Source: Cupriavidus pauculus
Lineage (GTDB): Bacteria; Pseudomonadota; Gammaproteobacteria; Burkholderiales; Burkholderiaceae
Assembly: GCF_008801835.1 (NCBI RefSeq)
Contig: NZ_VZOW01000017.1
Span: 1-64,000 of the forward strand
Length of the DNA stretch: 64,000 bases
Direction: 5' to 3'
Shown piece by piece: positions 4,071 to 18,846 of this stretch (the first letter of the stretch is position 1; each line of letters begins with the position of its first letter). The notes beneath the pieces were generated by a model. It made no database searches. It was not told the origin of the DNA and saw only the letters and a program-made list of their open reading frames with translations. The position numbers and the translations under genes were made by a program.

Positions 4071-4119
4071 GCGCAGACCGGCGGGCAGCGTGTTGCGCAG
4101 CCCACCGGCGCAAGGCACA

Positions 4120-5217
4120 TCACGAATTGCCGTCGGCTGACGGGTCCTGCTGCATGCCGAGCAGTTCCTCCAGTTGCGAGAGCGTGGCATCGTCCTTGAC
4201 CACGGTGCGCAGCCATTCATGCAGCGGCATATCGCCCCAGCGTGCAGCGCGGGCCGCGAGATAGGCCACCGGGCTGTGCGGCTCGGTGCGGCGGAAAAAC
4301 TCGGCCACTTCGCGCAGTTGCGCCAGCGCCTGCTGCCGCGAGCGCAGCGGACCGCCCGCGCCGTTGCCGGCCGATCCTTGACCTGCGGCCGGCGCGAACG
4401 TCGGCTCCTGGCGCACCGCCGGTCCGCCCTGCACCGACGCCTTGTCTTCCGCGGGGGTCGTCGGTTTTTCCACCCATCGCTCGACCAGATTCTTGACCGC
4501 ATCGAGCGCTTCCAGCGCCTGCCGGAAGCTGGGCGAATGCTCGCCAGCCTTGTCGTCCAGCACATCGGCAAGCCGCTGAACGGCTTCTATGCAACGGGCG
4601 ATGTCCGCCAGCGTCGCCGCGTGGAATGCGGCCGGCGTGGACTTGCGCGCAGCGTCGAACATGTCCAGCGTGGTCTTGCCGGCCGCCAGCGCATCGGCGT
4701 TATCGGGGTCGCGCCGAATCGCCTCGGCCAGGTTGGCGCCCGCCTCCCAGTCGATAAAGCTGTAGCCGCCGCTTCCTTGATCGACCAGCGGAACCTCGCG
4801 GATCAACTGGCGCGAACGGCCCGCCAGCCATGCGGCGCTGCCGGTCCGGTATTCGACGTCGTCGGCATCGGCCTGCGGATGCATGCCATCCCAGAACTGC
4901 TCGCACAGCCCCGCCGTCAGCAGATAGCCGTCGCGCAGGCCGGCAAAACCGTTGGTCTTGGAGAGCGCCTCGGTCATCCACACGGCTACGCGCAAATCCT
5001 TGGTCTTGCTGCCCAGCAGCGACGTACCAATCTTGACCACCTCGCGCCAGTCGGCTTCCTTGAGGTCTGTCACCCATTCGCCTTGATCGAGCGATGGATC
5101 GTCGAAACGACGCGCCTCCTGAATGCGATCGAATTCCGCGGAAAAGAGCATGTCTTCACCATATGGCGAATCGCCAGGAATGGGCGCAAGCAGGTGATCG
5201 AGAATAACGTTGGCCAT
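4120..5217 (-). CDS. tssA: Type VI secretion protein TssA (ImpA family)
   Basis: The 365-residue protein carries the ImpA N-terminal domain at about residues 8-130 (LLAPIPGDSPYGEDM and a WREVVKIG segment), followed by a variable Ala/Gln-rich linker and a C-terminal domain ending near LEELLGMQQD. TssA coordinates sheath and tube assembly at the baseplate. The gene is convergent with the OmpA-family gene, with 49 bp between stops. The start is placed at MANVILDHL because longer in-frame extensions read through low-complexity sequence without family resemblance. Confidence 0.85.
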   Translation of the reverse strand: MANVILDHLLAPIPGDSPYGEDMLFSAEFDRIQEARRFDDPSLDQGEWVTDLKEADWREVVKIGTSLLGSKTKDLRVAVWMTEALSKTNGFAGLRDGYLLTAGLCEQFWDGMHPQADADDVEYRTGSAAWLAGRSRQLIREVPLVDQGSGGYSFIDWEAGANLAEAIRRDPDNADALAAGKTTLDMFDAARKSTPAAFHAATLADIARCIEAVQRLADVLDDKAGEHSPSFRQALEALDAVKNLVERWVEKPTTPAEDKASVQGGPAVRQEPTFAPAAGQGSAGNGAGGPLRSRQQALAQLREVAEFFRRTEPHSPVAYLAARAARWGDMPLHEWLRTVVKDDATLSQLEELLGMQQDPSADGNS

Positions 5218-5487
5218 GAGGTGAACCGGTGACGGAAACCGCGCCAGTTTACCGTTACGTGTCGTCAAACGGGCGGTTTTGTGCGAGCGCGCAAGAGATC
5301 GTCGGCAGCGATCTTTTGCGCCGTCTTCGGGATGGCGAGACCTCGCATCAAGGCCCCGCGCCCCGGAGCGCGAGGAAACCTCGCTTGCGATGCGTGACAA
5401 AGAAATCAGCGGCGATTTTCTGGCGCGATCGCCCTTGCGCACTGGCCCAGGCGATATCGCGAATGGCCGCGACGCACCCGTGTGCCG

Positions 5488-5916
5488 TCAGGCCATTTCC
5501 TCGACAGCCTCGCCGGCCAGCGCGACTTCGGTCTCGGCAGCCACCTTGGCTTTCGCCGTCGCTTCGTCGACTTCGGAAACCATGTCGCCCAGACCGATGA
5601 CAACCGTGATATTCGGCGTCCAGTCCTTGCGATCGGTACTGACATCGGCAAAGGTGGTCACCGTTGCGGTGTAGCCCTGCGCCCGGAGATCGTCGGCGAG
5701 CCGTTGCGCGCGCGGCTCCAGCGCGGCTTGCGGATTGTCTTCGGTGATGTCGAGCACCAGCCTGGTCTCGAATTCTTCCTTGCCTTTCTGGATGGCCGCT
5801 TGCATGGCCTTGAGCTGCTTGTTCGCAAGCGCGACGAGCTTGCTGTACTTCGATTCTTCCTGGCTGGCGCGCAGTGCCTTGGCGGCGTTGACGATTTCGG
5901 TGCGGTCCACGAACAT
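5488..5916 (-). CDS. Conserved hypothetical protein, 142 residues
   Basis: I do not recognise the family. The product is acidic and largely helical, with an N-terminal half rich in Lys/Ala/Gln (LVALANKQLKAMQAAIQKGK) and a C-terminal half with alternating hydrophobic strands (NITVVIGLGD). It ends in an Ala/Glu-rich tail. The start at MFVDRTEIV is chosen because GAAAGG lies about six bases upstream; 18 further in-frame codons upstream have no ribosome site. It lies alone between tssA and the LysR gene, with about 270 bp of featureless sequence between it and tssA. No signal peptide or membrane segment is visible. Confidence 0.6.
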   Translation of the reverse strand: MFVDRTEIVNAAKALRASQEESKYSKLVALANKQLKAMQAAIQKGKEEFETRLVLDITEDNPQAALEPRAQRLADDLRAQGYTATVTTFADVSTDRKDWTPNITVVIGLGDMVSEVDEATAKAKVAAETEVALAGEAVEEMA

Positions 5917-6095
5917 GATTGCCTTTCGGAGGTGGAGAGAAAAAACGCAGGCGCCGTACGGCCTTGGCATGAGCCAGATTTCCGGTTGCGGCGAGCACTG
6001 TATAAATATACAGTAGTCATCAGCGAACCGGCAAGCGGTAAAGAGGCGGAGTCGTAATCTCGGGAGTATTCAGCGGGACCGGGCATCTGACCGGC

Positions 6096-6995
6096 TCACT
6101 GAATGTACGCCTTCAAACCTTCGGCGAGCGCGGCGAAAGTCACTGCACAGCGCGCGCTTTCGCGCAGGTCCTCGTGCATGGCGATCCAGGTATCCATCTT
6201 CAGCGAGAACTCGCTCCGTAGCACGCGTACCAGCGCTTTGTCCCGTGCGGCCAACGCCGATTGGCAAACGCCAATGCCCAAGCCCGCCCGGATAACCCCT
6301 AACTGGGCGAGGTCGCTGTCGGCACGGAACGCAAGGGCCGCGCGCGAGAACATCGGGAATTGATCGAGCAGTCGGCGAATGTACGCGTTCTCGTGGTCAA
6401 AGCCGATGAGCGTGTGGTGGGATAACGCTTCCAGCGATTTCGGCGTGCCGTGCGCGGCCAGATAGCGTTTGTGCGCATGTAAACCAAGTTCGATACCGCC
6501 TATGCGCTTGGCGACCAATGCGTCCTGCGTGGGCCGGAGCATGCGCACCGCGATGTCCGCCTCGCGATGCAACAGATCGTCCACCTTGTTCGACAGAACG
6601 AGCTCAATGATCAGTTCCGGGTACTCATTTCTCAGCTTGGCGAGGATCGGCGGCAGTACTTCTACGCCAATCACCTCGCTGGCGCTCAGGCGCACCGTGC
6701 CGCGAACCCCTGAGCCGTGGCTGCTGGCCACTCGGAGGATCGCCGCGGAGGTAGCGGCCACGCTGGCCGCATAGGGCTTGAGTTCGAGTGCAGCCGAGGT
6801 GGGCGCGAAGCCATCGAACGAGCGCGTAAAAAGCTTCAATGCCAACGCCGATTCAAGGCTATCGATGTGTCGGCCGACGGTCGGTTGGGTCAGACCCATC
6901 GCGCGCCCCGCCGCCGACAGCGAACCAGTCTCCAGCACCGTCAGAAAGGTCCGGTACCACTCCCAGTTCGGTTCGCTTTGCGTCATGGTATGCAT
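6096..6995 (-). CDS. LysR-family transcriptional regulator
   Basis: The 299-residue protein has the typical LysR layout: a winged helix-turn-helix at about residues 12-70 (TGSLSAAGRAMGLTQPTVGR) and a periplasmic-binding-protein-like effector domain from about residue 95. It is divergent from the NAD-epimerase gene at 7101, with 105 bp between starts, the usual arrangement for a LysR regulator and its target. The start at MHTMTQ is preferred; the internal MTQ start would only remove three residues. The effector is unknown. Long in-frame extension upstream overlaps the divergent gene on the other strand and is unlikely to be coding. Confidence 0.88.
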   Translation of the reverse strand: MHTMTQSEPNWEWYRTFLTVLETGSLSAAGRAMGLTQPTVGRHIDSLESALALKLFTRSFDGFAPTSAALELKPYAASVAATSAAILRVASSHGSGVRGTVRLSASEVIGVEVLPPILAKLRNEYPELIIELVLSNKVDDLLHREADIAVRMLRPTQDALVAKRIGGIELGLHAHKRYLAAHGTPKSLEALSHHTLIGFDHENAYIRRLLDQFPMFSRAALAFRADSDLAQLGVIRAGLGIGVCQSALAARDKALVRVLRSEFSLKMDTWIAMHEDLRESARCAVTFAALAEGLKAYIQ

Positions 6996-7021
6996 TTTTC
7001 TATAGCGGCGATGCGATTCTA

Positions 7022-7038
7022 GGCAATTTTCGTTTGCC
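7022..7038. promoter_or_regulatory. Candidate LysR-type binding site
   Basis: GGCAA-N7-TTGCC is an interrupted dyad in the 105-bp space between the divergent LysR and epimerase genes. LysR regulators usually bind such short interrupted dyads near their own start. The arms are only five bases long, so chance is not excluded. Confidence 0.3.
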
Positions 7039-7100
7039 CGTCCATTTGGCAATCTACGGCTTCCAACGGCGCAATCAATCGAAGTCCCAGGAGAACCGTC

Positions 7101-8066
7101 ATGTCCAAAGTAGCCCTGTTCGGCGCCGCAGGCGTCATCGGTCAAAGCATCGCCGCCGCTCTCAGTCGCGAGGGGCGTCGCTATCGCGTGGTCGGCCGGA
7201 GCGAACCCAGCCTGCGCGAGGCGTTCGGCGCCGATCCGCTCGCCGAGATCGTCACGTGGAACCCGAACTCGCCCGCGTCGGTGCAGGCGGCGGCCGAAGG
7301 CATCGAGACGCTCGTGTACATGGTCGGCGTGAACTACTGGCAGTTCGAGTTGCATCCCGAACTGATGCAAAGAACGATTGAGGGCGCCGTCGCGGCGGGA
7401 GTCAAGAACATCATCCTTATCGGCACCGTGTACCCATACGGCAGGGCAAGATCCAATCCGGTGCGCGAGGACCACCCGCGAGCGCCGCACACGTTCAAGG
7501 GCCGCATGCGCAAGGCGCAGGAAGACTTGCTGATGCAAGCGCATAAAGCCGGCCGCATCAAGGCGACCGTCCTGCGCTTGCCGGACTTCTACGGCCCGGG
7601 CGTGGAAGCCAGCCTGCTGCACCGCGCAGCGCTGGCGGCGGTGAATGGCGGCACCGCAGACATGGTCGGGCCGATCGACTGCCCGCACGAGTTCGTCTTC
7701 GTGCCCGACGTGGGACCGGTCGTCGCCCGGCTGCTCGATACGCCCGCTGCGTTCGGAAAGATCTGGAATTTGGCCGGTGCGGGCGTCACGACGCAGCGCG
7801 AGCTGGTGTCGGAGATGGAGCGGCTGACGGGCAGAAAGCTCAAATTACGCGTGGCGGGCAAGACGATGCTGCGCCTGATCGGTCTGTTCAACCCATTCAT
7901 GCGAGAGATGGTGGAGATGAACTATCTGATGACCGAGCCGTTGATCATGGACGATTCAGCGCTGCGGCAACTGATCGGCCCGATTCGCAAGACGTCCTAT
8001 CAGGAAGGCATCCGGCAGACACTGGCAGCTGTGGCGAGGACCGGCGCCCTGGCGACTGCAGCGTGA
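7101..8066 (+). CDS. NAD(P)-dependent epimerase/dehydratase-family protein
   Basis: The 321-residue protein starts with a Rossmann glycine motif (FGAAGVIGQ at residues 7-15). It continues as an extended/atypical SDR, with Tyr in a VYPYGRAR context near residue 112 and FKGRMRKAQE shortly after, matching the YxxxK-type active-site region only loosely. It probably reduces or epimerises a small substrate; the substrate cannot be read from the sequence. A ribosome site (AGGAGAA) lies just upstream of the ATG. It is divergent from the LysR gene, which probably controls it. Confidence 0.75.
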   Translation: MSKVALFGAAGVIGQSIAAALSREGRRYRVVGRSEPSLREAFGADPLAEIVTWNPNSPASVQAAAEGIETLVYMVGVNYWQFELHPELMQRTIEGAVAAGVKNIILIGTVYPYGRARSNPVREDHPRAPHTFKGRMRKAQEDLLMQAHKAGRIKATVLRLPDFYGPGVEASLLHRAALAAVNGGTADMVGPIDCPHEFVFVPDVGPVVARLLDTPAAFGKIWNLAGAGVTTQRELVSEMERLTGRKLKLRVAGKTMLRLIGLFNPFMREMVEMNYLMTEPLIMDDSALRQLIGPIRKTSYQEGIRQTLAAVARTGALATAA

Positions 8067-8133
8067 GGGAGGTTGAGCTTTCGATTGCCATTTACGGCGG
8101 CGGGATCACAGTGGACCGCATGCCGGCAAAATC

Positions 8134-8147
8134 CTCGCTTAAGCGAG
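8134..8147. promoter_or_regulatory. 14-bp perfect palindrome upstream of the ABC exporter
   Basis: CTCGCTTAAGCGAG is a perfect palindrome 43 bp before the ATP-binding gene, in an otherwise non-coding 123-bp gap. It may be an operator, or a hairpin ending the upstream transcript, although no T-run follows it. Confidence 0.35.
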
Positions 8148-8189
8148 AGCAGGTATCCTATGCGTCCCACCTACAGCGTCTAGCGCCAG

Positions 8190-8801
8190 ATGGACGGCCA
8201 CCTCCACATCCGCCAACTCGCCGGCCACGGCCGCGGCCCGTTTGACTTCGACGTACTCAGCGGACGGTGCACGACCCTATCGGGCCCATCGGGATCTGGA
8301 AAGAGTCTGCTGTTGAGGATGATCGCGGATCTGATTCCGAGTACGGGCGACGTCCGCATCGGCAGCATGTCTCGCGACAGCCTGAGCGGCCCGGCCTGGC
8401 GTCGCCAGGTTACATACGTTGCCGCGGAATCCGGCTGGTGGGCCGACGATGTTCTGAGCCATTTCGATACCTGCACGCCGTCGGCGCTGGCGCCGTTGCT
8501 GGTCAAGCTGCGTCTGCGCACCGATATCCTGACCGCGCACGTCAGCCATCTCTCGACCGGAGAGCGCCAACGACTGGCGTTGCTGAGAGCAATCGTCCTC
8601 GGTCCACGGTTCCTGCTACTGGATGAACCGACCTCGGGCCTCGATGAGGATTCCACCTTGGCGGTGGAAGCACTACTGAAGGGGCTGATGGCCGACGGGA
8701 CCGGATTGCTTGTCGTCACGCACAGTCCTGAACAGGCCATCCGTTTGCAGGGCGATCGCGTTCGTCTTTGCGCCACCGGCCTTGAGAGGGTCTCCGCATG
8801 A
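8190..8801 (+). CDS. fetA: ABC transporter ATP-binding protein, FetA-like
   Basis: This short (203 residues) ABC ATPase shows Walker A GPSGSGKS at about residue 32, the signature LSTGERQRLA at about 120, Walker B FLLLDEPTSGLD at about 145, and the switch His in VVTHS. Its length and pairing with the downstream UPF0014-type permease match FetA/YbbL, which with FetB forms an iron exporter linked to oxidative-stress tolerance in Escherichia coli. The stop overlaps the fetB start (ATGA). No strong ribosome site precedes the ATG, so the start is the least certain part. Confidence 0.8.
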   Translation: MDGHLHIRQLAGHGRGPFDFDVLSGRCTTLSGPSGSGKSLLLRMIADLIPSTGDVRIGSMSRDSLSGPAWRRQVTYVAAESGWWADDVLSHFDTCTPSALAPLLVKLRLRTDILTAHVSHLSTGERQRLALLRAIVLGPRFLLLDEPTSGLDEDSTLAVEALLKGLMADGTGLLVVTHSPEQAIRLQGDRVRLCATGLERVSA

Positions 8802-9595
8802 ATCCCATTTTGCTTACCTCAGGAGACCTGGTTCTGGCGAGCCTGCTTATCGTCGCCGGAGCTGCACTGTCGGTGGCGTTGTCCCTGGGGATCCATCGCA
8901 TGCTGCTGCTCGGCGCGGTTCGCATGGTTGTGCAATTGCTTCTCGTCGGCCTGGTGTTGCGCGCCGTATTCGCCATCGCATCTCCCTGGATCACCCTCCT
9001 GCTCGTCGTTGCAATGATTCTTGCCGCGGCCCGCGAAGCGGGAAGCCGGCAGGAGCGGCGTCTGGACCGTCGCTGGCAATTCCTCTTGGGGCTGGCCACG
9101 GTGAGCGCCCCGACAATCCTCATTACCGTACTGGCCCTGGTGACAGCGCTGCGCCCTTCCCCTTGGTACGACGCTCGCCACGCCATCCCACTGGCCGGCA
9201 TCATCCTTGGCAATGCGATGAATGCAGCGAGCCTGACGTTGCAGACGACGTTCAATGCCGCCTGGTATCAACGTCAGGCCATCGACGCGCGGCTGGCACT
9301 CGGTGCCGACCGGCAGACCGCGCTCCGCCCGATTCTGCGGCAGGCAGTTCGAAGTGGACTGCTACCGACCATCAACACGATGGCCGCCGCCGGCATCATT
9401 ACCCTTCCAGGGATCATGACCGGCCAGATCCTGGCGGGTATGGACCCGATCGAGGCAGCTCGTTACCAGATTCTGCTGATGTTCCTGCTATCGGGGGGAA
9501 GCATTCTCGCAGTTGTATTAGCCGCATGGCTAGCGCTATGGCGGCTGACGGATTCACGCCACCGACTGCGTCTGGACAGACTTGAGGCGCGTTAG
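8798..9595 (+). CDS. fetB: ABC transporter permease, FetB/UPF0014 family
   Basis: The 265-residue polytopic membrane protein has about six to seven hydrophobic segments and conserved FetB family blocks: a VRMVVQLLLVG helix near residue 45, GIILGNAMNAASL near 140, and LPGIMTGQILAGMDPIEAARYQ near 210. With FetA it forms a small exporter; iron is the known substrate in E. coli, so metal export is the working assumption here. The start overlaps the fetA stop by four bases. Hydrophobic segments span most of the chain and the C-terminus is basic and cytoplasmic-like. Confidence 0.85.
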   Translation: MNPILLTSGDLVLASLLIVAGAALSVALSLGIHRMLLLGAVRMVVQLLLVGLVLRAVFAIASPWITLLLVVAMILAAAREAGSRQERRLDRRWQFLLGLATVSAPTILITVLALVTALRPSPWYDARHAIPLAGIILGNAMNAASLTLQTTFNAAWYQRQAIDARLALGADRQTALRPILRQAVRSGLLPTINTMAAAGIITLPGIMTGQILAGMDPIEAARYQILLMFLLSGGSILAVVLAAWLALWRLTDSRHRLRLDRLEAR

Positions 9596-9871
9596 TGCGA
9601 TCGCTCCTCGCCGCCTTTCGGTCCCCCCGGGACGCACAGGAGGGCGTGGCCGACCCGCATGAATCGGTCGGCTAGAGGCATCCCGACCTCCTGAACAACT
9701 TTCTGGCACCTGCGCTAAAGTCTTAGCTTTTTCAGCCGATGACATGGTAGGCCAGATTTTATGCTGGCATTCCATTTGTTATTCGTTGAGGCCTGCCAAC
9801 GTTACATACGTGCTTGGCTAAATGTTCCAGAGTGTTCAACTTTTTAAAAGTAGATCCAGAAAGGAAAAGAG

Positions 9872-10243
9872 GTGAACCAGAAATTCGAAGAGGTGCGAAT
9901 AGAGGAACTGGCTACATCAGCTGCCGAAGAGGTAGATGCGCTCCCATTCGGCGTAATCGGATTTACGCTGGACGGGACTGTTACCGTCTATAACGCCACC
10001 GAGTCGACAAACGCGGGCTTGAGTCCGAAGCGAGTGCTAGGCAAGCATTTTTTTGAAGAAGTCGCGCCGTGCATGAACAACTTCATGGTTGCGCAACGAT
10101 TCGACGACGCGGACGAGCTCGACGACATCATTCCCTACGTCCTGACCTTGCGCATGCGTCCGACGCCGGTACGGTTGAGGCTGCTGAAAGCGCTCGGCTG
10201 CGCGACCCATTTTGTCCTGATCGAGCGGAGGACAGCAAATTGA
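9872..10243 (+). CDS. Photoactive yellow protein-like PAS protein
   Basis: The 123-residue single-domain protein matches the length of photoactive yellow protein (125). It aligns over the core: LPFGVIGFTLDGTVTVYNA at 24-42, then KHFFEEVAPC ending at 67, then RMRPTPV at 94-100. Tyr40, Glu44 and Cys67 fall at exactly the spacing of PYP Tyr42, Glu46 and Cys69, the chromophore-contacting and p-coumarate-attaching residues. PYP Arg52 and Thr50 are replaced by Leu and Ala, and the loop after Cys67 is about three residues shorter. It starts with GTG behind AGGAAAAGAG. It is translationally coupled to a GGDEF gene, so it is probably the input for c-di-GMP control. Whether it binds a chromophore is untested. 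Confidence 0.8.
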   Translation: MNQKFEEVRIEELATSAAEEVDALPFGVIGFTLDGTVTVYNATESTNAGLSPKRVLGKHFFEEVAPCMNNFMVAQRFDDADELDDIIPYVLTLRMRPTPVRLRLLKALGCATHFVLIERRTAN

Positions 10244-11604
10244 GCGGGCCGAATACCGACAAGAACGACGTGGAGTCCGAGTACGAATCCTTGCTCTCAT
10301 TCATGTATCTATCGCCGGTCGGGATTGTTCGCTGCGACAAATCTGGCCGCGTTGACATGATGAATCCGCTTGCCGCGCAACTGCTCATGCCTCTGGTAAA
10401 AGGCGGGAACATCGAGAATATTTTCGACAGCCTTGCGTCGGTGGCCCCAGAGCTGCGCCATCTGGCGGCCAGTTTCGAAGCGGAGCGGGGGCCTGTGTGT
10501 GAAAACCATCGGGTTTTCGTAACCCCGGCCAAGGATGGCGCAGTCGTCCTGGCATGTTCCATCATCAAAGTGAATGTGGATGTGCTGATGATGGTGTTGA
10601 CGGACATCTCCCGCCAGGTTGCCGCTGAGCGCCGAGCACGACAAACCGAGTCATGGCTTGCCGGAATCTATACCGGCGTCAACGATTTTGCGTTTTTTAC
10701 GCTCGATGCCCACGGCTGCATCGATAGCTGGAATCCATCTGTTGAGCGCTTGACGGGTTTTCGTGAGGCGGAAGTTGTCGGGCATACGCTGTCGCGCTTT
10801 TATGCCAACGATGAGATTGTTTTGCACCGTTCACCCGAGCACATCGCGCTGACGCGCGAAGATGGTTGGCACGTAGAGGAGTTCTGGTGCGAATCGAAAG
10901 CGGGTCGGCGCTATTGGGGGCAAGTTCTCGTTTCTGTGCTTCGTGAGGAGGACGACGAGATTTCCGGGTATTCGGTGGTGTTGAGGGACATTACGGAACG
11001 AAAAGTTCACAGCGACAACCTCGCGCGGCTTCTTACAACAGATCACCTGACCGGCGTAACGAACCGCGCTCACTTCTTTGAAATCGGGGAGTCCGAAGTT
11101 GCACGGGCCGAACGCCACCGCCGGGCATTGTCGCTGGTTATGCTGGACGCCGACCACTTCAAGCGGATCAATGACACGGGCGGCCATCAGGCTGGCGACG
11201 AGGTTTTGAAGCGGATTGCTGGTGAAGCAAAAGCGCTTCTGGGAAGGTCCGACATTGTCGCGAGACTCGGAGGAGAGGAATTCGTCCTGCTGCTTCCGTC
11301 CACCACAGCAGAGGAAGCAATGGCGGTCGCGGAGCGACTGCGCATCGCCGTCGAGCAAGCACTTATTGACACGGCTGTCGGACAATTCAAAGCGACTATC
11401 AGTCTTGGCGTAGCGAGTCTCGGTGATGAAAACCCGACACTGCAAGCCCTGTTGGCTGCCGGTGACCGCGCCCTCTATGCCGCAAAACAAGCGGGGCGAA
11501 ATTGTGTGCGCGGCGCCACTGCGGGGCCGAAGGACGTAGCGCTTTCTGTCAGAGAAGAAGGCACCCGCTCCAACTCCACGGGTGCCGGGCCACGGCGCCG
11601 GTAG
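10240..11604 (+). CDS. PAS-PAS-GGDEF diguanylate cyclase
   Basis: The start is read as TTG, overlapping the PYP-like stop (TTGA), with GGAGG about nine bases upstream; this gives 454 residues. A first PAS-like region spans about 15-125, a second PAS with PAC tail about 138-255 (WNPSVERLTGFREAEVVG, then DITERK), and a GGDEF domain about 262-430. The active loop is GGEEF at 344-348, with metal Asp303 in LDADHFKRIND, so cyclase activity making c-di-GMP is expected. The RxxD inhibitory site nine residues before the loop is absent (Gly at that position). No membrane segment is visible, so it is cytosolic and may be driven by the PYP-like partner. Confidence 0.9.
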   Translation: MSGPNTDKNDVESEYESLLSFMYLSPVGIVRCDKSGRVDMMNPLAAQLLMPLVKGGNIENIFDSLASVAPELRHLAASFEAERGPVCENHRVFVTPAKDGAVVLACSIIKVNVDVLMMVLTDISRQVAAERRARQTESWLAGIYTGVNDFAFFTLDAHGCIDSWNPSVERLTGFREAEVVGHTLSRFYANDEIVLHRSPEHIALTREDGWHVEEFWCESKAGRRYWGQVLVSVLREEDDEISGYSVVLRDITERKVHSDNLARLLTTDHLTGVTNRAHFFEIGESEVARAERHRRALSLVMLDADHFKRINDTGGHQAGDEVLKRIAGEAKALLGRSDIVARLGGEEFVLLLPSTTAEEAMAVAERLRIAVEQALIDTAVGQFKATISLGVASLGDENPTLQALLAAGDRALYAAKQAGRNCVRGATAGPKDVALSVREEGTRSNSTGAGPRRR

Positions 11605-11644
11605 GTGCAATCCCAAACAGAAAATAGAAACGGCGCAAAGAGAA

Positions 11645-12436
11645 ATGGCTTCTTTCAAGATTCATGGCCACGACGCTGTGGCCAGTCAATCGAATAGATG
11701 TTCTGGATGCAAGGACACGAAACCCCTGCCAGTTGAGATCGATTTCGCATTTCAGCCAATCGTCGACGTGAACGCCAGAGCGGTGTTCGCGTACGAGGCG
11801 CTGGTACGGGGTGCAAACGGGGAATCTGCGCATTCGGTGCTATCGCAAATCGACGATGCAACGAAATACCAGTTCGACCAACAGTGCCGGCAGACTGCAA
11901 TCGCCAGTGCTGCGGCGTTAGGTCTGGACGCGTTTCTGTCAATCAATTTCATGCCCAACGCGGTCTATCGGCCGGAGGTCTGCATACGAAGCACCCTGGA
12001 CGCGGCGCAGGCGAATGGTTTCCCGATTGAAAGAATCATCTTCGAGACGGTCGAGGGTGAACATCTTGCGGACCGAAATCACCTGGTCGATATTTTTAGA
12101 GCCTACAAGGAATACGGCTTTCTCACTGCAATCGATGATTTTGGGTCGGGTTACTCGGGACTTGCGCTTCTGGTAGATTTTCAGCCCGACATCATCAAGC
12201 TCGATATGGGACTTCTCCGCGGCATCGACACTGACAGCGTGCGTCAGCGCGTCGTGCGAAGTGTCATATCGATGTGCCACGACCTCGGCATCCGCGTGGT
12301 TGCGGAAGGCATCGAAACCAAAGGCGAGCGTGATTTCTTTGTTGCGCATGGAGTGCGTCTGATGCAAGGCTATTTTTTCGCAAAACCGGCTTTTAAAGCG
12401 ATTCCAACCATCGATGAAATGTTGTACTCCGCCTAG
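11645..12436 (+). CDS. EAL-domain c-di-GMP phosphodiesterase
   Basis: The 263-residue protein is an almost bare EAL domain with a short N-terminal tail containing Cys19 and Cys22 in a CSGC pair. Catalytic positions are all present: Glu51 in EALVR, Asn101, Glu134, Asp164-Asp165 in DDFGSGYSG, Lys185, Glu221 in AEGIET and Gln241 in MQGYF. An active phosphodiesterase degrading c-di-GMP is therefore expected. It follows the diguanylate cyclase by 40 bp on the same strand. It resembles the EAL domains of BluF-type proteins, some of which are inactive regulators, but here the active site is intact. The ribosome site is weak. Confidence 0.88.
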   Translation: MASFKIHGHDAVASQSNRCSGCKDTKPLPVEIDFAFQPIVDVNARAVFAYEALVRGANGESAHSVLSQIDDATKYQFDQQCRQTAIASAAALGLDAFLSINFMPNAVYRPEVCIRSTLDAAQANGFPIERIIFETVEGEHLADRNHLVDIFRAYKEYGFLTAIDDFGSGYSGLALLVDFQPDIIKLDMGLLRGIDTDSVRQRVVRSVISMCHDLGIRVVAEGIETKGERDFFVAHGVRLMQGYFFAKPAFKAIPTIDEMLYSA

Positions 12437-12660
12437 CGGGATTGCGCGGGCGGGTCATGGAGTCAGCCCAGAAGGAAAACTGCGGCCCGATGCCAGGACC
12501 AGATCGAAACCCGGCTGTACAGTTCTCACAGCCAGTAACGCATCATGCTGCTCATCCGCCCGAGGGCGAGAGCTTGTTTGAGGGTCCTATGAGGGGAATC
12601 TTCCACTCAAATGACTAATAGAAAGATAATGGACCCCTCGCTGTCTCGCCTTAACACCTC

Positions 12661-14046
12661 ATGACACCCCTGGATATTCAATTGTTGCTGACCGCCCTCG
12701 TCAGCGTACTCGTGCTCGTCGCGCTCATCGTGTCGCGAATCAAGATGCACCCGCTCTTGGCGCTGCTCATCGTTTCCATTGGCGTCGGCTTCGCAACTGG
12801 CATGGCCCCGGAAAGCATCGTCAAGCATCTAGTCGATGGTGCAGGCAAAACGCTCGGCGCGGTGGGTGTAGTGATTGCGCTCGGCGCCATGCTCGGCAAG
12901 ATTCTTGCTGATGCCGGGACCACAGAGCAGATTGCAGATGCGATTCTGAAGCGCACTTCGGATCGGATGATCCCGTGGGCGATGACACTGGTGGCCTTTG
13001 TCGTCGGCATTCCCATGTTCTTCGAAGTCGGTCTGGTGGTGATGCTGCCGTTGATCTTCAGTGTCGCCCGCAAACTGGAGAGCAACAGCCGCTTCAAGGG
13101 TTCGGCCTATGTCTATGTGGGGGTCCCGGTCATTTCCGCGCTGGCCGCCATGCATGGCATGGTGCCGCCCCACCCCGGTCCGCTGACGGCCATCGCCAGT
13201 CTGAAAGCATCCGTGGGGCCCACGATGCTGTACGGCTTTATCGCGGCGATTCCCGCCATGATTCTTGGCGGTCCACTTTACGGCGCCTTCATTTCGCCGC
13301 GCATGAATACCCGGCCCGACCAGGCTCTCCTGGACCAGTTCACCCTCCCGGAGAAAGCGGCCGCCGCCCGGCAGCCCGGCGTCGGGACCGGCGTGCTCGC
13401 AGCATTGCTGCCCGCGATCTTGATGCTCGCGCATGCGATTGCCGAAACGGTGCTGCCCAAGGGGAGCGCCGTGCTGCATGTGGCAAGCTTCCTCGGCAAT
13501 CCGTTGATTGCCATGTTGCTGGGCGTGATGTTCGCGATTGTGGCGCTGGTGCTCTCGCGCGGCGGCGATGCCGAGAAACTGCGCGGCGCGCTGGGCAGCA
13601 GCCTCAAGCCGATTGCCTCGATCATCATGATCATCGCGGGCGGCGGCGCGTTTCAGCAGATGCTCACCAGCGCTAAAGTGGGCGACGCCATCGTACATCT
13701 GACGCAGCAACTCGCATTCCCGCCGCTTATCCTTGGCTGGCTGATCGCGATGCTGCTATCGGTCTCGACCGGGTCCGCCACCGTTGGCATCGTCGGCGCC
13801 GCGGGCCTGCTGGCACCGCTCGCCGGCAGCGATCCGAGCCTCAATCTGCCACTGCTCGCATTGTCGATCGGTTGCGGATCGCTGTTCTTCAACTACGCCA
13901 ATCACGCGGGTTTCTGGATGGTCAAGGAATCGTTCGGCATGACCATGAGCGAAGCGACAAAGACCATCTCGGTGGTCCAGTCGATCGTTGCGGCTGTCGG
14001 ACTGATCATGGTGCTGATCCTCAATGCCGCGATTCCCGTGCATTGA
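12661..14046 (+). CDS. GntP-family gluconate/organic acid:H+ symporter
   Basis: The 461-residue inner-membrane permease has about 12 to 14 hydrophobic segments and GntP family blocks such as HPLLALLIVSIGVGFATG near residue 30, HGMVPPHPGPLTAIA near 165 and STGSATVGIVGAAGL near 365. Gluconate is the classic substrate, but members also carry fructuronate, glycerate and other hydroxy acids. It stands alone on the plus strand and is convergent with the LacI regulator gene (103 bp between stops); no catabolic gene is fused or overlapping. The ATG directly follows an A/T-rich leader with a poor ribosome site. Confidence 0.85.
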   Translation: MTPLDIQLLLTALVSVLVLVALIVSRIKMHPLLALLIVSIGVGFATGMAPESIVKHLVDGAGKTLGAVGVVIALGAMLGKILADAGTTEQIADAILKRTSDRMIPWAMTLVAFVVGIPMFFEVGLVVMLPLIFSVARKLESNSRFKGSAYVYVGVPVISALAAMHGMVPPHPGPLTAIASLKASVGPTMLYGFIAAIPAMILGGPLYGAFISPRMNTRPDQALLDQFTLPEKAAAARQPGVGTGVLAALLPAILMLAHAIAETVLPKGSAVLHVASFLGNPLIAMLLGVMFAIVALVLSRGGDAEKLRGALGSSLKPIASIIMIIAGGGAFQQMLTSAKVGDAIVHLTQQLAFPPLILGWLIAMLLSVSTGSATVGIVGAAGLLAPLAGSDPSLNLPLLALSIGCGSLFFNYANHAGFWMVKESFGMTMSEATKTISVVQSIVAAVGLIMVLILNAAIPVH

Positions 14047-14149: not shown

Positions 14150-15211
14150 CTAGCTGGCTGCCGGGGGTGCCGCGGTGGACCCGCGCACCACCAGCTCCGG
14201 CCGTAATTCGACGACGACGCTGGCGGTAAGTGGCTTGGCGATCCGGCGCAGCAGCAGCTCTGCGGCCTGCTCGCCCATGTCGTGTACGGGGATGCGGATG
14301 GTGGTAAGCGGCGGCGTCAGCGCATCGACGAACGGCATGTCGTTGTGACCGACGATGGAAACGTCATCCGGGCAGCGGATGCCGTGCTCGCGCAGATAGT
14401 CGTAGCACCCCATCGCTACCAGATCATTGCCAGCGGCGATGGCGGTCAGGCCGGGCAAGGCTTCAAACAACTGCGCGCAGGCCTTGCGACCTGCTTCGCG
14501 GCCATAGCTTTCCGCCTCGACGACCACATACTGGGCGCGGCGCAGGCGATGCCGCTTCACTGCATGCAGGAAGCCCTCCCGGCGCGACTCGCCTGTCGAC
14601 GTACTGGCCGGGCCGGCGATATGCCCGATGCATCGATGGCCCAGCGACACCAGGTGATCGACCGTCAGCCCCATGGCCAGCGCACTGTCACTGACTACGC
14701 ATGACGCCCTTCCCGTCGGTTCGCCGCGATTGACCATCACCACGGGGATGCCCACCTTCACGCAGTATTCGAGCAGCGGATCGTCGCGCTCGGCTGTCGC
14801 CAGGATCAGCCCTTCCACCTGGCGAGCCAGCATCTGGTCCACGACGAAGCGCTGGCGCGCGCGCTCGGTGCCGGCATTCACGACGATCGGTACATAGCCC
14901 ATCCGTGAAAGCACCGATTCGATGCCCGCCAGGATTGGCGGGAACACCGGGTTGGCGATATCGGGAAGGATCACCCCGACCAGCCCGGAGCGCTGCGTGC
15001 GCAGCCCGGCTGCGATGCGGTTGGGGCGGAAACCGCGCGCCTCGGCCAACTTCAGGATACGAGCGGCCACCTCTTCGGCCACCAAGTGGCGCGTTGCCGG
15101 GTTCATCACACGCGACACCGTGGAATAATGCACGTCGACCTCCGCGGCAAGGTCTTTGATGGTCACGCGTTTGCGCTCGGACATGGGACGGCGGACGCCA
15201 GGCTGGTTCAT
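14150..15211 (-). CDS. LacI-family transcriptional regulator of the catabolic unit
   Basis: The 353-residue protein has an N-terminal LacI helix-turn-helix (VTIKDLAAEVDVHYSTVSRV at about 18-38) and a periplasmic-binding-type effector domain (SGLVGVILPDIANPVFP near 78). It is the last gene of a minus-strand series running down from the dioxygenase. The most likely targets are the two palindromes sharing TGCAAACGTTTGCA upstream of the dioxygenase and of the porin, so it is probably an autogenous repressor released by a pathway intermediate. The start MNQPG is preferred because GGAC lies upstream; MSERKR, nine residues later, lacks a ribosome site. Confidence 0.88.
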   Translation of the reverse strand: MNQPGVRRPMSERKRVTIKDLAAEVDVHYSTVSRVMNPATRHLVAEEVAARILKLAEARGFRPNRIAAGLRTQRSGLVGVILPDIANPVFPPILAGIESVLSRMGYVPIVVNAGTERARQRFVVDQMLARQVEGLILATAERDDPLLEYCVKVGIPVVMVNRGEPTGRASCVVSDSALAMGLTVDHLVSLGHRCIGHIAGPASTSTGESRREGFLHAVKRHRLRRAQYVVVEAESYGREAGRKACAQLFEALPGLTAIAAGNDLVAMGCYDYLREHGIRCPDDVSIVGHNDMPFVDALTPPLTTIRIPVHDMGEQAAELLLRRIAKPLTASVVVELRPELVVRGSTAAPPAAS

Positions 15212-15250
15212 TGAGGTCCGCCATTCTAGCGTCTGCCGTGCCTGCACCCT

Positions 15251-16249
15251 TTACTCCCCGGCGCGCACGCCCGACTGCCTGACCACCGGCGCCAGCTTGA
15301 CGATTTCGGCCTGGATATAGCTGGCAAACTCCTGCGGGGTACTGGGTCGGGGTTCCGCGCCCTGCGCTGCCAGGCGCTCGCGCACGTCCGGCGCCGCCAG
15401 CGCCTTGCCGATTTCGGCGTTGATCGCGTTGACGATCTCCTTGGGCGTCGAAGCTGGCGCGAGCACGCCAAACCAGGAGTCGAAGGCATAGTGCGGCAGC
15501 CCGGACTCCGCCACGGTTGGGACATCCGGCAGCGCGGCGGCCCGTTTGGGCGTGGTCACCGCCAGCGCGCGGAGCTTGCCCTGGCGGACAAATGGCATCG
15601 CCGACACGGTCGGCGCGAACATCATGTCGCCGCGCCCCGCCATCACATCGGTCAATCCTTCACCCGTGCCCTTGTATGGGATGTGCATGATGTCGATGCC
15701 CGCCTGGATCTTGAACATCTCGCCGCTCAGGTGCGTGGAACTGCCCGATCCGGCCGAATTGAAATTCATCGCACCCGGCCGGGCCTTGGCCGCCGCGACA
15801 ATGTCACGGACCGACTTGTACTGGCTGGCCGCATTGACCACCAGCACATTTGGGACCGACGCCACCAGCGATACGGGCGCGAAGTCCTTCACCGTGTCAT
15901 AAGCCAGCTTCGGATAGAGCGTGGCGTTAATGGCGTGCCCCACGGACACCAGGATCAGCGTGTAGCCGTCAGGGGCCGACTTGGCAACCGTAGTGGCGCC
16001 CAGCGTGCCGCCCGCGCCCGGACGGTTGTCGACGACGACCTGCCAATGGCCGCCCTCCCCCATCTTGGTGGCGATGATGCGCGCCAGGATGTCGGTGGCG
16101 CTGCCCGCGGAAAACGGCACCACCAGCCGGATCGGCTTGGCAGGAAACTGCGGCTGCGCGCCAGCCATTGTCGGTACAGCCACCGCTGCCGCCAGCGCGA
16201 ACGCGGCAAGGGGCTGGAGCGTACGGGGGCGGAAAAGCTGTCGAATCAT
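15251..16249 (-). CDS. Tripartite tricarboxylate transporter-type substrate-binding protein (Bug/TctC family)
   Basis: The 332-residue periplasmic protein has a signal peptide (basic start, long Ala-rich hydrophobic segment, cleavage near MAGAQ) and the TctC fold motifs KPIRLVVPFSAGSATDILAR near residue 37 and VVVDNRPGAGG near 70. This family is greatly expanded in Burkholderiales and binds carboxylates, often aromatic or organic acids. GAGGAGA precedes the start. It lies 34 bp after the porin and 39 bp before the LacI gene. No TctA/TctB membrane partners are nearby, which is common for orphan Bug proteins; the ligand is probably the pathway substrate. Confidence 0.88.
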   Translation of the reverse strand: MIRQLFRPRTLQPLAAFALAAAVAVPTMAGAQPQFPAKPIRLVVPFSAGSATDILARIIATKMGEGGHWQVVVDNRPGAGGTLGATTVAKSAPDGYTLILVSVGHAINATLYPKLAYDTVKDFAPVSLVASVPNVLVVNAASQYKSVRDIVAAAKARPGAMNFNSAGSGSSTHLSGEMFKIQAGIDIMHIPYKGTGEGLTDVMAGRGDMMFAPTVSAMPFVRQGKLRALAVTTPKRAAALPDVPTVAESGLPHYAFDSWFGVLAPASTPKEIVNAINAEIGKALAAPDVRERLAAQGAEPRPSTPQEFASYIQAEIVKLAPVVRQSGVRAGE

Positions 16250-16283
16250 GATGGTCTCCTCGCAACAGTGACGTGTCGTGGCG

Positions 16284-17405
16284 TCAGAAGAAATGCCGCA
16301 TGCCGAGCGCAAACGTCTGCGGATCGGCGCCGGCCTTGACGCCAAGCTCGTTGATGGCAAAGTCGTAGATCGCGTTTTTCTTGTTGTTGATGCGGCTGTA
16401 GTAGGCAAATAGCGCCGTCCGCTTTGAAAGCGGATAGTCGTAGCCCACGGTGAACTGCATGGCACCGGTTTCCGGGCCGCTTCGGAAGAAGCCGATCGTG
16501 TCAGTGGACGATCCGGTCCCGTTCGGTGCGAAGGCAAAGCCCACGCGAACGCTGCCCGGGCCGAGCTTCTGCACCAGGGACGCGTAGTAGCCGTTGCGCT
16601 GCAGATCCCCGGTATCGGTGCGGTAGTGCAGATGTTCGTAGACCGCAGCGATACGGGTGCCCGGCAGCAACTGGTAGGCCAGCGCCACCTTCAGGGCATC
16701 GTCGTTGCGCCCGGCCGCCTGGTAATGCTGGTGGATTTCGTATGCGAACGTCGCGCTAAGCGGCCCCTGGTCGTAGACCAGCGCCGCCGAGTACAGCGCC
16801 GGGTTCCTCGGGACGGTGGTCTTCTCCTCCGGCAGCCCCCAGCCCAGCCACAGGCTGGCACCCCAGAGCTGGGGCGAGCGGTACTGCACGATGTTCTTCT
16901 GGCGCCGGTCGAAGGAACTGGTGTCCTGCACGTTGTCGGAGCTGGACGTCGATCCGTTGCCAATCAGCGCCATGTAGCCAGCCGTTGTTGGGTAGTACGG
17001 ATCGTAGCTGGCGGTTGATTCGGTGTAGGGCGTCTGCCAGTGCCCCATGAACACCAGGCCGTAGTCGCCCTGCAGTCCCACACGGGAGTTGCGCCCCGCG
17101 ATCTGCCCCTGGCCGGTATCGAGCGAGACATTGCTTTCGATCTGCCAGACGGCCTTGAGCGAGCCAAACAGATCCTCCTCGCCCCGAAACCCGAACACCG
17201 AGCGGTTGTTGGTCAGCCGCGCCCTGCCGCCAAGCCTGGTGCCATCGGTGGACGTGCTGGCACTGGAGTATTCGATGGCCGTATTGAGCCGGCCGTAGAT
17301 GGTGACGCTGTTTTCTGCCATGGCCGGCGCTACAACACCGGCCGACATCAGCGCCAGCGGCGCCAGCGGCACTAGACGGCGACGTTGGAAAGCTCTTCTT
17401 TGCAT
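16284..17405 (-). CDS. Gram-negative outer-membrane porin
   Basis: The 373-residue protein has a signal peptide ending near APAMAEN, then VTIYGRLNTAIEYSS, the conserved first strand of Burkholderiales trimeric porins. It shows repeated beta-strand periodicity and ends in a C-terminal Phe (GMRHFF), the outer-membrane insertion signal. GGAGGAGA lies upstream of the ATG. A 24-bp palindromic operator lies 42 bp before the start, so it can be regulated separately from the five upstream enzyme genes while answering to the same LacI regulator. It likely admits the pathway substrate. Confidence 0.9.
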   Translation of the reverse strand: MQRRAFQRRRLVPLAPLALMSAGVVAPAMAENSVTIYGRLNTAIEYSSASTSTDGTRLGGRARLTNNRSVFGFRGEEDLFGSLKAVWQIESNVSLDTGQGQIAGRNSRVGLQGDYGLVFMGHWQTPYTESTASYDPYYPTTAGYMALIGNGSTSSSDNVQDTSSFDRRQKNIVQYRSPQLWGASLWLGWGLPEEKTTVPRNPALYSAALVYDQGPLSATFAYEIHQHYQAAGRNDDALKVALAYQLLPGTRIAAVYEHLHYRTDTGDLQRNGYYASLVQKLGPGSVRVGFAFAPNGTGSSTDTIGFFRSGPETGAMQFTVGYDYPLSKRTALFAYYSRINNKKNAIYDFAINELGVKAGADPQTFALGMRHFF

Positions 17406-17446
17406 CCTGGGTCTCCTCCTTTGTTATGGGTCGTGGCGGATGACGC

Positions 17447-17470
17447 GGATCTGCAAACGTTTGCAGATCC
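17447..17470. promoter_or_regulatory. LacI-type operator upstream of the porin gene
   Basis: This is a perfect 24-bp inverted repeat with half-site GGATCTGCAAAC, centred on a CG step typical of LacI/PurR-family operators. It lies between the cupin stop and the porin start. Its 14-bp core is identical to the palindrome at 21505-21518, which makes both the likely targets of the LacI regulator at 14150-15211. Confidence 0.8.
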
Positions 17471-17480
17471 GCTAAAAAAA

Positions 17481-17831
17481 CTAAGGCACGGCGCGCGGCG
17501 GATACGGCATGGCCAGCAGCAGCATGGCTGGCAGGTTGGACGGATTGGATACCTGGCGGGCTTCCCCCGGCGCCAGCCGCACGGAGTCGAACCGCCCCAG
17601 GGTGACGGTCTCCGACGGGGTGCGGATACAGACCGTGCCTTCCAGCACGACATAGTGCTTCTCAACGGGCGACGCATCGAGCGACGTATGGCCGCCCGGG
17701 AGGATCACTGAGACGCCCATCCACAGCGCCTCCGACGGGCCCGCCTCGTGCCCTTGCAGCCGCAGGCAATGCATGCCGTCGTGGTTGGCCGGATGGTAGG
17801 CCGGTGCCTCGGCAAATCGGGTCGTGTTCAT
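17481..17831 (-). CDS. Small cupin-domain protein
   Basis: The 116-residue protein folds as a single cupin: strands around GVSVILPGGHTSLDASPVEK give His48 and Glu57 as possible metal ligands, with EGTVCIRT and a PGEARQVSN segment forming the second half. Such stand-alone cupins in catabolic clusters act as small dioxygenases, isomerases or decarboxylase helpers; nothing here decides which. Its start overlaps the stop of the upstream dehydrogenase gene (ATGA on the minus strand), so it is translationally coupled to that gene. It is the last gene before the operator that separates the enzyme genes from the porin. Confidence 0.75.
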   Translation of the reverse strand: MNTTRFAEAPAYHPANHDGMHCLRLQGHEAGPSEALWMGVSVILPGGHTSLDASPVEKHYVVLEGTVCIRTPSETVTLGRFDSVRLAPGEARQVSNPSNLPAMLLLAMPYPPRAVP

Positions 17832-18805
17832 GGCGTCAGCACCACGCGTTCGGGGGCGCCCTGCAGCACCGCGCGATAGGCGTCCTTGGCGTCGGCCAGC
17901 GCATAGGTATAGTCGGGCAGCACCGGAAACGGCTTGAGTTGCCCGGCGGCGAACATCGGCGCCAGGGCGTCGAGGATCTTGGCGCAGGCCTGGCTGTCCA
18001 TTGCCAGCGTGTCCACGCCCACATAGGTGTGCTGCCCCCGGTAGAACGCGAAGATATCGAAGGGCACAGGCTTCTCGATGGTCGAGATAAAGATCTGCGT
18101 GGCGCCAATCGCCATGGCCAGGTTGGCCTGCTCGAAATAGGGGCTGCCCACCGTGTTGTAAACGATGTCCGCGCCATGGCCGCCGGTTTCGTCGCGCACC
18201 ACCTCGGCAATGGCTTCCCGGCTGGCATCGATCATGCGCACCGCGCTACTGGCGTGGCCACGGTACGGCTCCGACTTGCGTTCCACCGCGAACACCCGTG
18301 CGCCGAGCGCGGTGGCAATCTGGATCGTGGCCTGGCCAACCTTGCCATTGCCGCCGGCGACCAGCACCACGTCGCCCGCCTTGGGCATGCCGGCGCGGCG
18401 CAGGCCTTCATAAGCCGTAATGAACGGCACGCCCACGGCACCGGCTTCGATCAGCGAGATGGCGTGCGGCTTGGCGCGCACGGCCTCCGCGCTGATGCGC
18501 AGGTACTTGCCGTGCGTACCGTCGCGGCGAATGCCAAGCTCGCCGCCACTGCCCCACACTTGCTGCCCGATCAACTGGCCAGGGCCATCGATAACAACGC
18601 CTGCGTAGTCGCGTCCCGGCGTACGTGGCCAGACGGCATGCGGCATCAGGCCGAGCGTGGCCTTGACATCGCTGGGATTCACGCCCGCGCTAACCACTTC
18701 GACAATGCACTCGCCCGCGCCCGCCTCTGGCCGCGGCATCCCGACCAGCGACAGCTCGAGCGCGTCGATGGTCGAAGCTTTCCGTTGAACCTGAATGGTG
18801 TTCAT
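17828..18805 (-). CDS. Zinc-type alcohol dehydrogenase-like (MDR) oxidoreductase
   Basis: The 325-residue medium-chain dehydrogenase/reductase has a GroES-like N-terminal half (GVNPSDVKATLGL and PGRDYAGVV) and a Rossmann half with VLVAGGNGKVGQATIQIA near residue 150. The structural-zinc Cys cluster is absent, so it is closer to quinone oxidoreductase/enoyl reductase-like members than to true zinc alcohol dehydrogenases. It likely reduces an unsaturated or keto intermediate with NADPH. The start follows the BKACE stop by 41 bp, and its stop overlaps the cupin start. Confidence 0.8.
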   Translation of the reverse strand: MNTIQVQRKASTIDALELSLVGMPRPEAGAGECIVEVVSAGVNPSDVKATLGLMPHAVWPRTPGRDYAGVVIDGPGQLIGQQVWGSGGELGIRRDGTHGKYLRISAEAVRAKPHAISLIEAGAVGVPFITAYEGLRRAGMPKAGDVVLVAGGNGKVGQATIQIATALGARVFAVERKSEPYRGHASSAVRMIDASREAIAEVVRDETGGHGADIVYNTVGSPYFEQANLAMAIGATQIFISTIEKPVPFDIFAFYRGQHTYVGVDTLAMDSQACAKILDALAPMFAAGQLKPFPVLPDYTYALADAKDAYRAVLQGAPERVVLTP

Positions 18806-18846
18806 GATGTATGGATGATCAGTAATGTTTAAAAAGTGCGCGGCGC

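Follow-up and report, generated by a model that had tools for sequence, protein, structure and literature searches.

The biophysics of photoactive yellow protein (PYP) is very well studied, and the question raised by a three-gene unit of Cupriavidus pauculus is on which partner a PYP made as a free single domain might act. The unit lies on the forward strand of a 64,000-nucleotide stretch (positions 1 to 64,000 of contig NZ_VZOW01000017.1, assembly GCF_008801835.1; hereafter the window) and consists of a clade C PYP homologue (9872..10243; 123 residues, GTG start), in which Tyr40, Glu44 and Cys67 stand for PYP Tyr42, Glu46 and Cys69, a PAS1-PAS2-GGDEF diguanylate cyclase (10240..11604; 454 residues) and a stand-alone EAL phosphodiesterase. 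The signal transduction chain of PYP is called an important knowledge gap in the available sections of PMC12826048 (this source and PMC9664959 are cited throughout for such sections). We propose as the link PAS1, the PAS-like N-terminal domain of the cyclase (10267..10665, forward strand, residues 10-142), which in the genomes searched was found almost only beside PYP and may be a docking domain.

Neither Pfam nor NCBIfam has a family for PAS1. When the full cyclase was scanned against Pfam, PAS_8 covered residues 25-55 of PAS1 at 22.5 bits (cut-off 21.8). Two of 28 PAS1 domains scanned singly (E<=0.01) gave a Pfam match, namely that of the window to PAS_9 (17.6 bits, cut-off 27) and another to an unrelated glycosyltransferase domain (E 0.0031), and NCBIfam returned two single aminotransferase matches with E about 0.005 for the lone domains. 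The best match of PAS1 to PDB sequences had an E of only 0.21, while the order of strands and helices in its predicted model appears PAS-like. An origin of PAS1 as a paralogue of PYP was considered and is unsupported (hhalign probability 7%).

PAS1 was sought, with a profile built from 60 cyclases, in 80 related loci, and further in a family draw and an order draw of genomes and in plasmid and phage collections; L numbers denote loci from any of these sets. The 80 loci were the best 80 of 88 matches to peptide patterns of the window PYP; chosen in this way, they are blind to PYPs of other sequence types. Few classic (clade A/B) PYP operons were sampled in the analysis as a whole. A PAS-type gene starts no more than 300 bp downstream of PYP in all 80. 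The profile detected 130 stretches at 20 bits or more, the next reported scores being 1.4 bits or lower; 82 of these begin no more than 300 bp past a PYP, and every one of the 80 loci has one so placed; the other 48 lie within 6 kb beyond. The additional PYPs in L006, L025, L038 and L071 are not followed by PAS1 at this distance; three of the four are classic, scoring above the cut-off of the NCBIfam model TIGR02373 (photo_yellow), and a contig end truncates the fourth. In L130, L227, L228 and L229, too, the classic PYP has no PAS1 directly after it, which brings the number without PAS1 directly downstream to seven classic PYPs above the TIGR02373 cut-off plus the truncated eighth.

The same association was observed in the wider searches. 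In one draw of 299 genomes of the family, searched for PYP at E<=1e-12 and PAS1 at E<=1e-8 with all candidates scored in the genomes listed, PYP occurred in 21 genomes and PAS1 in the identical 21, which belong to 6 of 25 genera. A PYP stands beside each of the 22 strong PAS1 places (at least 135 bits), in one case as a gene split over two frames, and six weaker places (76-84 bits) lie about 1.5 kb from a PYP, five downstream and one upstream. In genome G186 (contig 2, 1887539-1887903) the second PYP gene, split over two frames, adjoins a PAS1 cyclase frame that is stop-free in the match. The order-wide draw of 399 genomes, some of which are apparently also among the 80 loci, yielded 22 PAS1 places, spread over 11 genomes, and at 21 of them a PYP stands no more than 2 kb away on the same strand; since no more than 10 candidates were scored per genome, some PAS1 lacking a PYP may have escaped this search. 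Among 72,556 plasmid records PAS1 was present in 11 and PYP in 13, and the best PAS1 place adjoins a PYP in 11 of 11; the PYP records without PAS1 were L227 (classic, 177 bits with TIGR02373) and L230 (clade-C-like, 78 bits). No PAS1 was found in the phage records. The L230 PYP (4965-5351) is on a Comamonadaceae plasmid; its neighbour is a very long PAS protein, and a BLUF gene follows after about 4 kb.

PAS1 was found on several kinds of output protein. Of the 128 PAS1 matches with at least 60 bits in the 80 loci, 62 are joined to PAS2 and GGDEF, 49 to GGDEF and EAL and three to a histidine kinase, while four lie in two-PAS1 frames with all these domains, two have PAS2 only and one has GGDEF only; in the remaining seven no other domain was found, some of these being pieces of broken genes. 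Histidine kinases carrying PAS1 were confirmed by Pfam in L036, L215, L218, L219 and L220. Because an N-terminal PAS1 is shared by cyclases, GGDEF-EAL proteins and histidine kinases of PYP loci, it is PAS1, rather than the type of enzyme, that tracks PYP. The available sections of PMC9664959 and PMC12826048 contain no mention of a shared N-terminal partner domain tied to PYP, and a literature search by titles and abstract openings, with subscription papers mostly outside its coverage, returned no paper on a PYP-coupled PAS1. Two observations on these genes may be added. Proteins of L041 (6297-7454), L067 (5871-7418) and L049 (2910-3989) consist of PAS1-PAS directly after PYP followed by a C-terminal part that is blank in Pfam (E<=0.01) and may represent a fourth output type; in L007 (6603-8503) an IS21-like mobile element, with istA/istB-like open reading frames (ORFs) recognized by eye, breaks the cyclase gene within PAS1.

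From this distribution we suggest, with the balance about even, that PAS1 is an undescribed PYP-coupling domain which evolved with clade C PYP and serves as an interchangeable adaptor on cyclases, cyclase-phosphodiesterases and histidine kinases. That PAS1 forms the contact surface for PYP is likewise about as probable as not. Several observations speak against this reading or the mechanism proposed below, and the searches for chromophore genes described further below have to be counted with them. A PAS1-PAS-GGDEF protein of L224 (6368-7615; genome G516, contig 41) has no PYP in the 6.4 kb before or the 9.2 kb after it; this genome is 68% complete and carries a PYP elsewhere, and the protein was the only PAS1 cyclase without a nearby PYP seen. 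The clade-C-like PYP of L230 lacks PAS1. Co-inheritance within an operon would by itself also produce the co-occurrence of PYP and PAS1, and the correlation between PYP and cyclase distances (r 0.81, n=60, a value reached in 0 of 999 permutations), which counts in favour of the reading, may equally reflect shared descent. PAS1 is barely better conserved within the cyclases than PAS2 and is not singled out (mean conservation 0.65 for PAS1, 0.60 for PAS2 and 0.66 for GGDEF). Finally, according to the sections of PMC9664959, no clade C PYP has been characterised.

Much of this would fit a different account, in which PAS1 is merely part of an old cyclase family co-inherited with PYP, contact between the two is made elsewhere if at all, and PAS1 has a separate small-molecule signal. 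The relatives' cyclases do resemble one family, the distance correlation and the similar conservation of PAS1 and PAS2 point the same way, and at 30 bits or more the PAS2 profile was found outside these proteins in only 1 of 67 cases within the fetched loci, a piece of a broken cyclase. We nevertheless regard this account as rather unlikely, as PAS1 occurs without PAS2 on the 49 GGDEF-EAL proteins and the three histidine kinases counted above in the 80 loci, and further PAS1 kinases are present in L215, L218, L219 and L220. If the coupling reading is true, PAS1 would be the missing signalling partner of single-domain PYP, enzymes carrying PAS1 would be targets of free PYP, and the pair would represent a two-part light switch transferable to different enzymes. 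The tie of PYP to one domain on several types of output provides a concrete partner surface to test.

In the mechanism that we propose for the window, the PYP homologue, if loaded with p-coumarate on Cys67, would absorb blue light, and the light-changed protein would act in trans on PAS1 of the co-translated cyclase, probably by docking to it, thereby raising or lowering the rate at which cyclic di-GMP (c-di-GMP) is made. Because PYP would alter the cyclase while the EAL protein removes c-di-GMP, the unit would set a light-dependent c-di-GMP level and hence, we assume, attachment or motility. Taken as a whole, we think it reasonably probable that the window holds a horizontally acquired clade C PYP/c-di-GMP operon in which PYP acts via PAS1 on the cyclase. 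Two published systems are comparable in part (PMC9664959, PMC12826048). The PYP of Idiomarina loihiensis is likewise a single domain with an adjacent GGDEF protein but belongs to clade A; it is reported to lower biofilm formation under blue light (PMC12826048). Ppd of Thermochromatium tepidum (PYP-phytochrome-GGDEF-EAL) also couples PYP to c-di-GMP enzymes, as a single fusion that includes a phytochrome, whereas the unit in the window consists of separate genes and has no phytochrome.

The closest likeness is to the clade C PYPs already published beside GGDEF and EAL genes (PMC9664959, PMC12826048), which are single-domain proteins from Burkholderiales with Tyr42, Glu46 and Cys69 kept, Phe92, Phe96 and Trp119 lost, Met100 kept and GGDEF and EAL genes downstream; nothing basic differs in the window. 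Clade C occurs mostly in Proteobacteria, Burkholderiales especially, and frequently adjoins GGDEF genes, many GGDEF and many EAL neighbours being reported (PMC9664959), and predicted pyp operons include GGDEF in 29 cases and EAL in 22 (PMC12826048). In the 80 loci, GGDEF lies no more than 2.5 kb downstream in 75 and EAL, on the same strand, no more than 4.5 kb away in 60, with the PAS-type gene, GGDEF and EAL all present in 58. The first-pass annotation had considered a three-gene c-di-GMP unit unusual, PYP genes being usually linked to histidine kinases or standing alone; neither part of that claim survives these counts and the two published accounts, and an unusual operon was rejected as an explanation. 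The operon is one further case of a published type, and the tie between PAS1 and PYP is the new part. A RimA-like EAL protein (more than 150 bits to that of the window) follows in only 8 of the 80 loci, in L018 weakly (206 bits, 47%), and in most other loci with EAL the domain is found within a PAS1-GGDEF-EAL protein encoded by the second or third gene.

Whether the window PYP senses light depends on its chromophore. We lean towards light sensing in this strain, and the supply of p-coumarate is the weak point of this view. The first-pass annotation had pointed to tyrosine ammonia lyase (TAL) and p-coumaroyl-CoA ligase (pCL) as genes to look for elsewhere in the genome. In the host genome (6.4 Mb in 111 contigs, one PYP only), the search gave no PYP-type pCL above the cut-off (best 96.9 against 334.7 bits, 55 of 55 candidates scored), no TAL, the single aromatic ammonia lyase being HutH (684 bits, cut-off 539), whose gene adjoins hutU, and no p-hydroxycinnamoyl-CoA hydratase/lyase above the cut-off. 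If the PYP does sense light here, a different CoA ligase must take part and p-coumarate must come from outside; otherwise the protein has another function. Finding this operon where chromophore genes are not evident makes the source of p-coumarate a question in itself.

The genomes of 38 of the 80 loci were searched for pCL with TIGR02372, scoring at most 37 candidates per genome, and 12 of these 38 clade C genomes contained pCL at E<=1e-60, six above the cut-off. With 37 of the 43-48 candidates in each genome scored, the Pandoraea relatives L002, L004 and L006 likewise gave none at E<=1e-60, although a piece of a pCL-like ORF lies near the second PYP of L006, which stands after the EAL gene. 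Within the fetched stretches, a pCL-like ORF was present in 14 of 80 and a TAL-like ORF in 6 of 80, where TAL-like means lyase only and the TAL query also matches the HutH of the host; among pyp operons pCL occurs in 32% and TAL in 5% (PMC12826048). In L228 (Indioceanicola, 1016-6161) a classic pyp, a pcl, a lyase gene, a clade C PYP and a cyclase follow in a row, and in L229 (Caballeronia sp. SBC2, 4501-8931) a clade C PYP-cyclase-EAL unit faces an AMP-binding gene and a classic pyp. The two PYPs in each of these clusters perhaps share a chromophore supply. The host genome has the clade C unit only and no second PYP.

These results are also compatible with the same operon working independently of light in this host, the PYP being an apoprotein or binding some other ligand, thiol-reactive or phenolic, since the transfer left the chromophore genes behind. 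The host has no pCL above the cut-off, no TAL and a single PYP, and L002, L004 and L006 likewise lack pCL at E<=1e-60 apart from the ORF piece in L006. On the other side stand the retention of Tyr40, Glu44 and Cys67, the purifying selection on the gene (see below) and the low frequency of chromophore genes among relatives and in published operons, as pCL in only 12 of 38 clade C genomes and the operon frequencies (PMC12826048) imply that PYPs may rely on other CoA ligases or on p-coumarate from outside. We consider light independence unlikely and retain light sensing as the preferred view.

Behind PAS1, the cyclase contains an ordinary PAS domain, PAS2 (PAS_9/PAS by Pfam and the model; 10675..11004, forward strand), and a GGDEF domain (11026..11514, forward strand; Pfam E 6.9e-44) with a GGEEF active site at residues 344-348, the motif of an active diguanylate cyclase. 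The EAL protein (11645..12436, forward strand, 263 residues; Pfam E 1.3e-45) has the motifs EALVR, NFMPN, ETVEG, DDFGSG, IIKLD, VVAEGIE and MQGYFF, which, like GGEEF, we take to be active-site elements. Both motif sets were already described as complete on first pass, a description that these matches confirm, and both c-di-GMP enzymes look active. The RxxD inhibitory site of product-inhibited cyclases reads GRSD in the window (11242-11253, residues 335-338), the first Arg being replaced by Gly, while 59 of the 63 GGEEF cyclases in the comparison, which includes that of the window, retain RxxD. Since GRSD replaces RxxD, feedback inhibition by c-di-GMP may be weakened, and the cyclase of this strain may escape product inhibition.

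The subfamily nearest to the EAL protein is RimA of the Pseudomonas rim genes (NF052265), its top NCBIfam match. It is very improbable that the protein is a RimA that regulates the modification of ribosomal protein S6 with light as input, as its 395 bits lie under the cut-off of 430 and the host genome has no convincing RimK, three RimK-fold matches reaching 24-38 bits only and the best of them being a glutathione synthase above its own cut-off. Scoring up to 8 candidates in each of the 299 family genomes moreover gave relatives of this EAL protein (E<=1e-60) in 37, and around some of these the 2.7-3.8 kb inspected contain neither PYP nor cyclase.

That the small protein belongs to the PYP family, as the first-pass annotation had recognized together with its pocket residues, is close to certain. 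TIGR02373 was its sole NCBIfam match at E<=10 (E 8.4e-20), with a score of 71.1 bits, which is under the cut-off of 143.05; three other clade C or clade-C-like PYPs score 49-78 bits, and seven classic PYPs 165-185. Because the model finds about 20% of PYP homologues, most PYPs being listed under Pfam PAS or PAS_4 (PMC9664959), its cut-off was not treated as defining the family; PAS and PAS_4 also match the window PYP, barely above their cut-offs. In the search of PDB sequences (E<=10) 33 of 34 matches were PYP or PYP-derived (best E 4e-16). Foldseek with an AlphaFold2 model (predicted local distance difference test, pLDDT, 88.1) placed PYP or PYP-derived FAST proteins at ranks 1-40, other PAS domains following at template modelling (TM) scores of 0.57-0.66; the closest solved structures and sequences are PYPs rather than other PAS domains. 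The alignment to PYP has no gaps from residue 13 to about 78, and Tyr40, Glu44 and Cys67 therefore correspond to Tyr42, Glu46 and the chromophore-bearing Cys69. A shared pocket for the three residues, which the first-pass annotation had made a condition of the PYP assignment, is supported only indirectly, by this alignment and by the PYP-like fold. Tyr40 and Glu44 are kept in 81 of 81 aligned rows and neither lies within a search pattern, while Cys67 is present in 81 of 81 as well, a count that is biased because APCMNNFM, which contains this Cys, served as a search pattern. A chance likeness of an unrelated PAS domain, for which the 71 against 143 bits and the marginal Pfam matches could be cited, has a vanishing probability given the PDB matches, the Foldseek ranking, the invariant Tyr40 and Glu44 and the low coverage of TIGR02373 (PMC9664959), and a generic PAS domain was rejected.

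Hallmark residues and identity place the protein in clade C, which is defined by Phe92, Phe96 and Trp119 not being conserved and Met100 being retained (PMC9664959); in the window these positions are I87, L91, F114 and M95. The nearest PYPs (74-84% identity, L002-L007) come from Pandoraea, Paraburkholderia and a Burkholderia sp. The changes of PYP Thr50 and Arg52 had been read as a sign of a different pocket. This does not hold, as the residues found there, Ala48 and Leu50, are the family consensus (PMC12826048), with Ala at position 50 in 77 and Leu at position 52 in 81 of the 81 rows, and an altered pocket via T50A/R52L was rejected. All 81 rows have Pro immediately ahead of the chromophore Cys; in L134 and L135, from two genomes of the same genus as the host, the PYP reads VAICMNNF with Ile in its place. 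The clade C or clade-C-like PYPs of plasmid records H1, H2, H3, H6 and H12 are annotated as 'phosphonate transporter', a misannotation of PYPs noted in PMC9664959.

The layout of the three genes is that of a pyp operon, with pyp followed directly by the GGDEF and EAL genes on a single strand. The TTG start of the cyclase overlaps the PYP stop as TTGA by 4 bp, an arrangement repeated in all six of L002-L007, and the EAL gene begins 40 bp past the cyclase, in agreement with the overlap and single likely transcript proposed on first pass. A promoter scan of 9500-12700 gave one site, at 12651 near the end of the region, against 1.6 expected, and six terminator-like sites were detected there against 3.8 expected (standard deviation 2.1), which does not allow either end of the transcript to be assigned. 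Ratios of nonsynonymous to synonymous substitution rates (dN/dS) relative to L002, L003, L004 and L006 were 0.17-0.24 for PYP, 0.11-0.17 for the cyclase and 0.10-0.12 for the EAL gene; all three are under purifying selection. The unit was likely acquired horizontally, which is the simplest reading of two observations: the three genes lie in a stretch of low G+C content (9601..12600; 55.9%, against 63.0% and 64.3% in the flanking 3 kb), and PYP is present in only 3 of 60 Cupriavidus genomes, that of the host included. Further along the window, 14172-19500 shows 80.4% identity to Cupriavidus campinensis. The neighbouring genes are apparently unrelated to the operon, with an ABC ATPase and a UPF0014 membrane protein upstream (8190-9595) and a GntP permease downstream (12661-14046).

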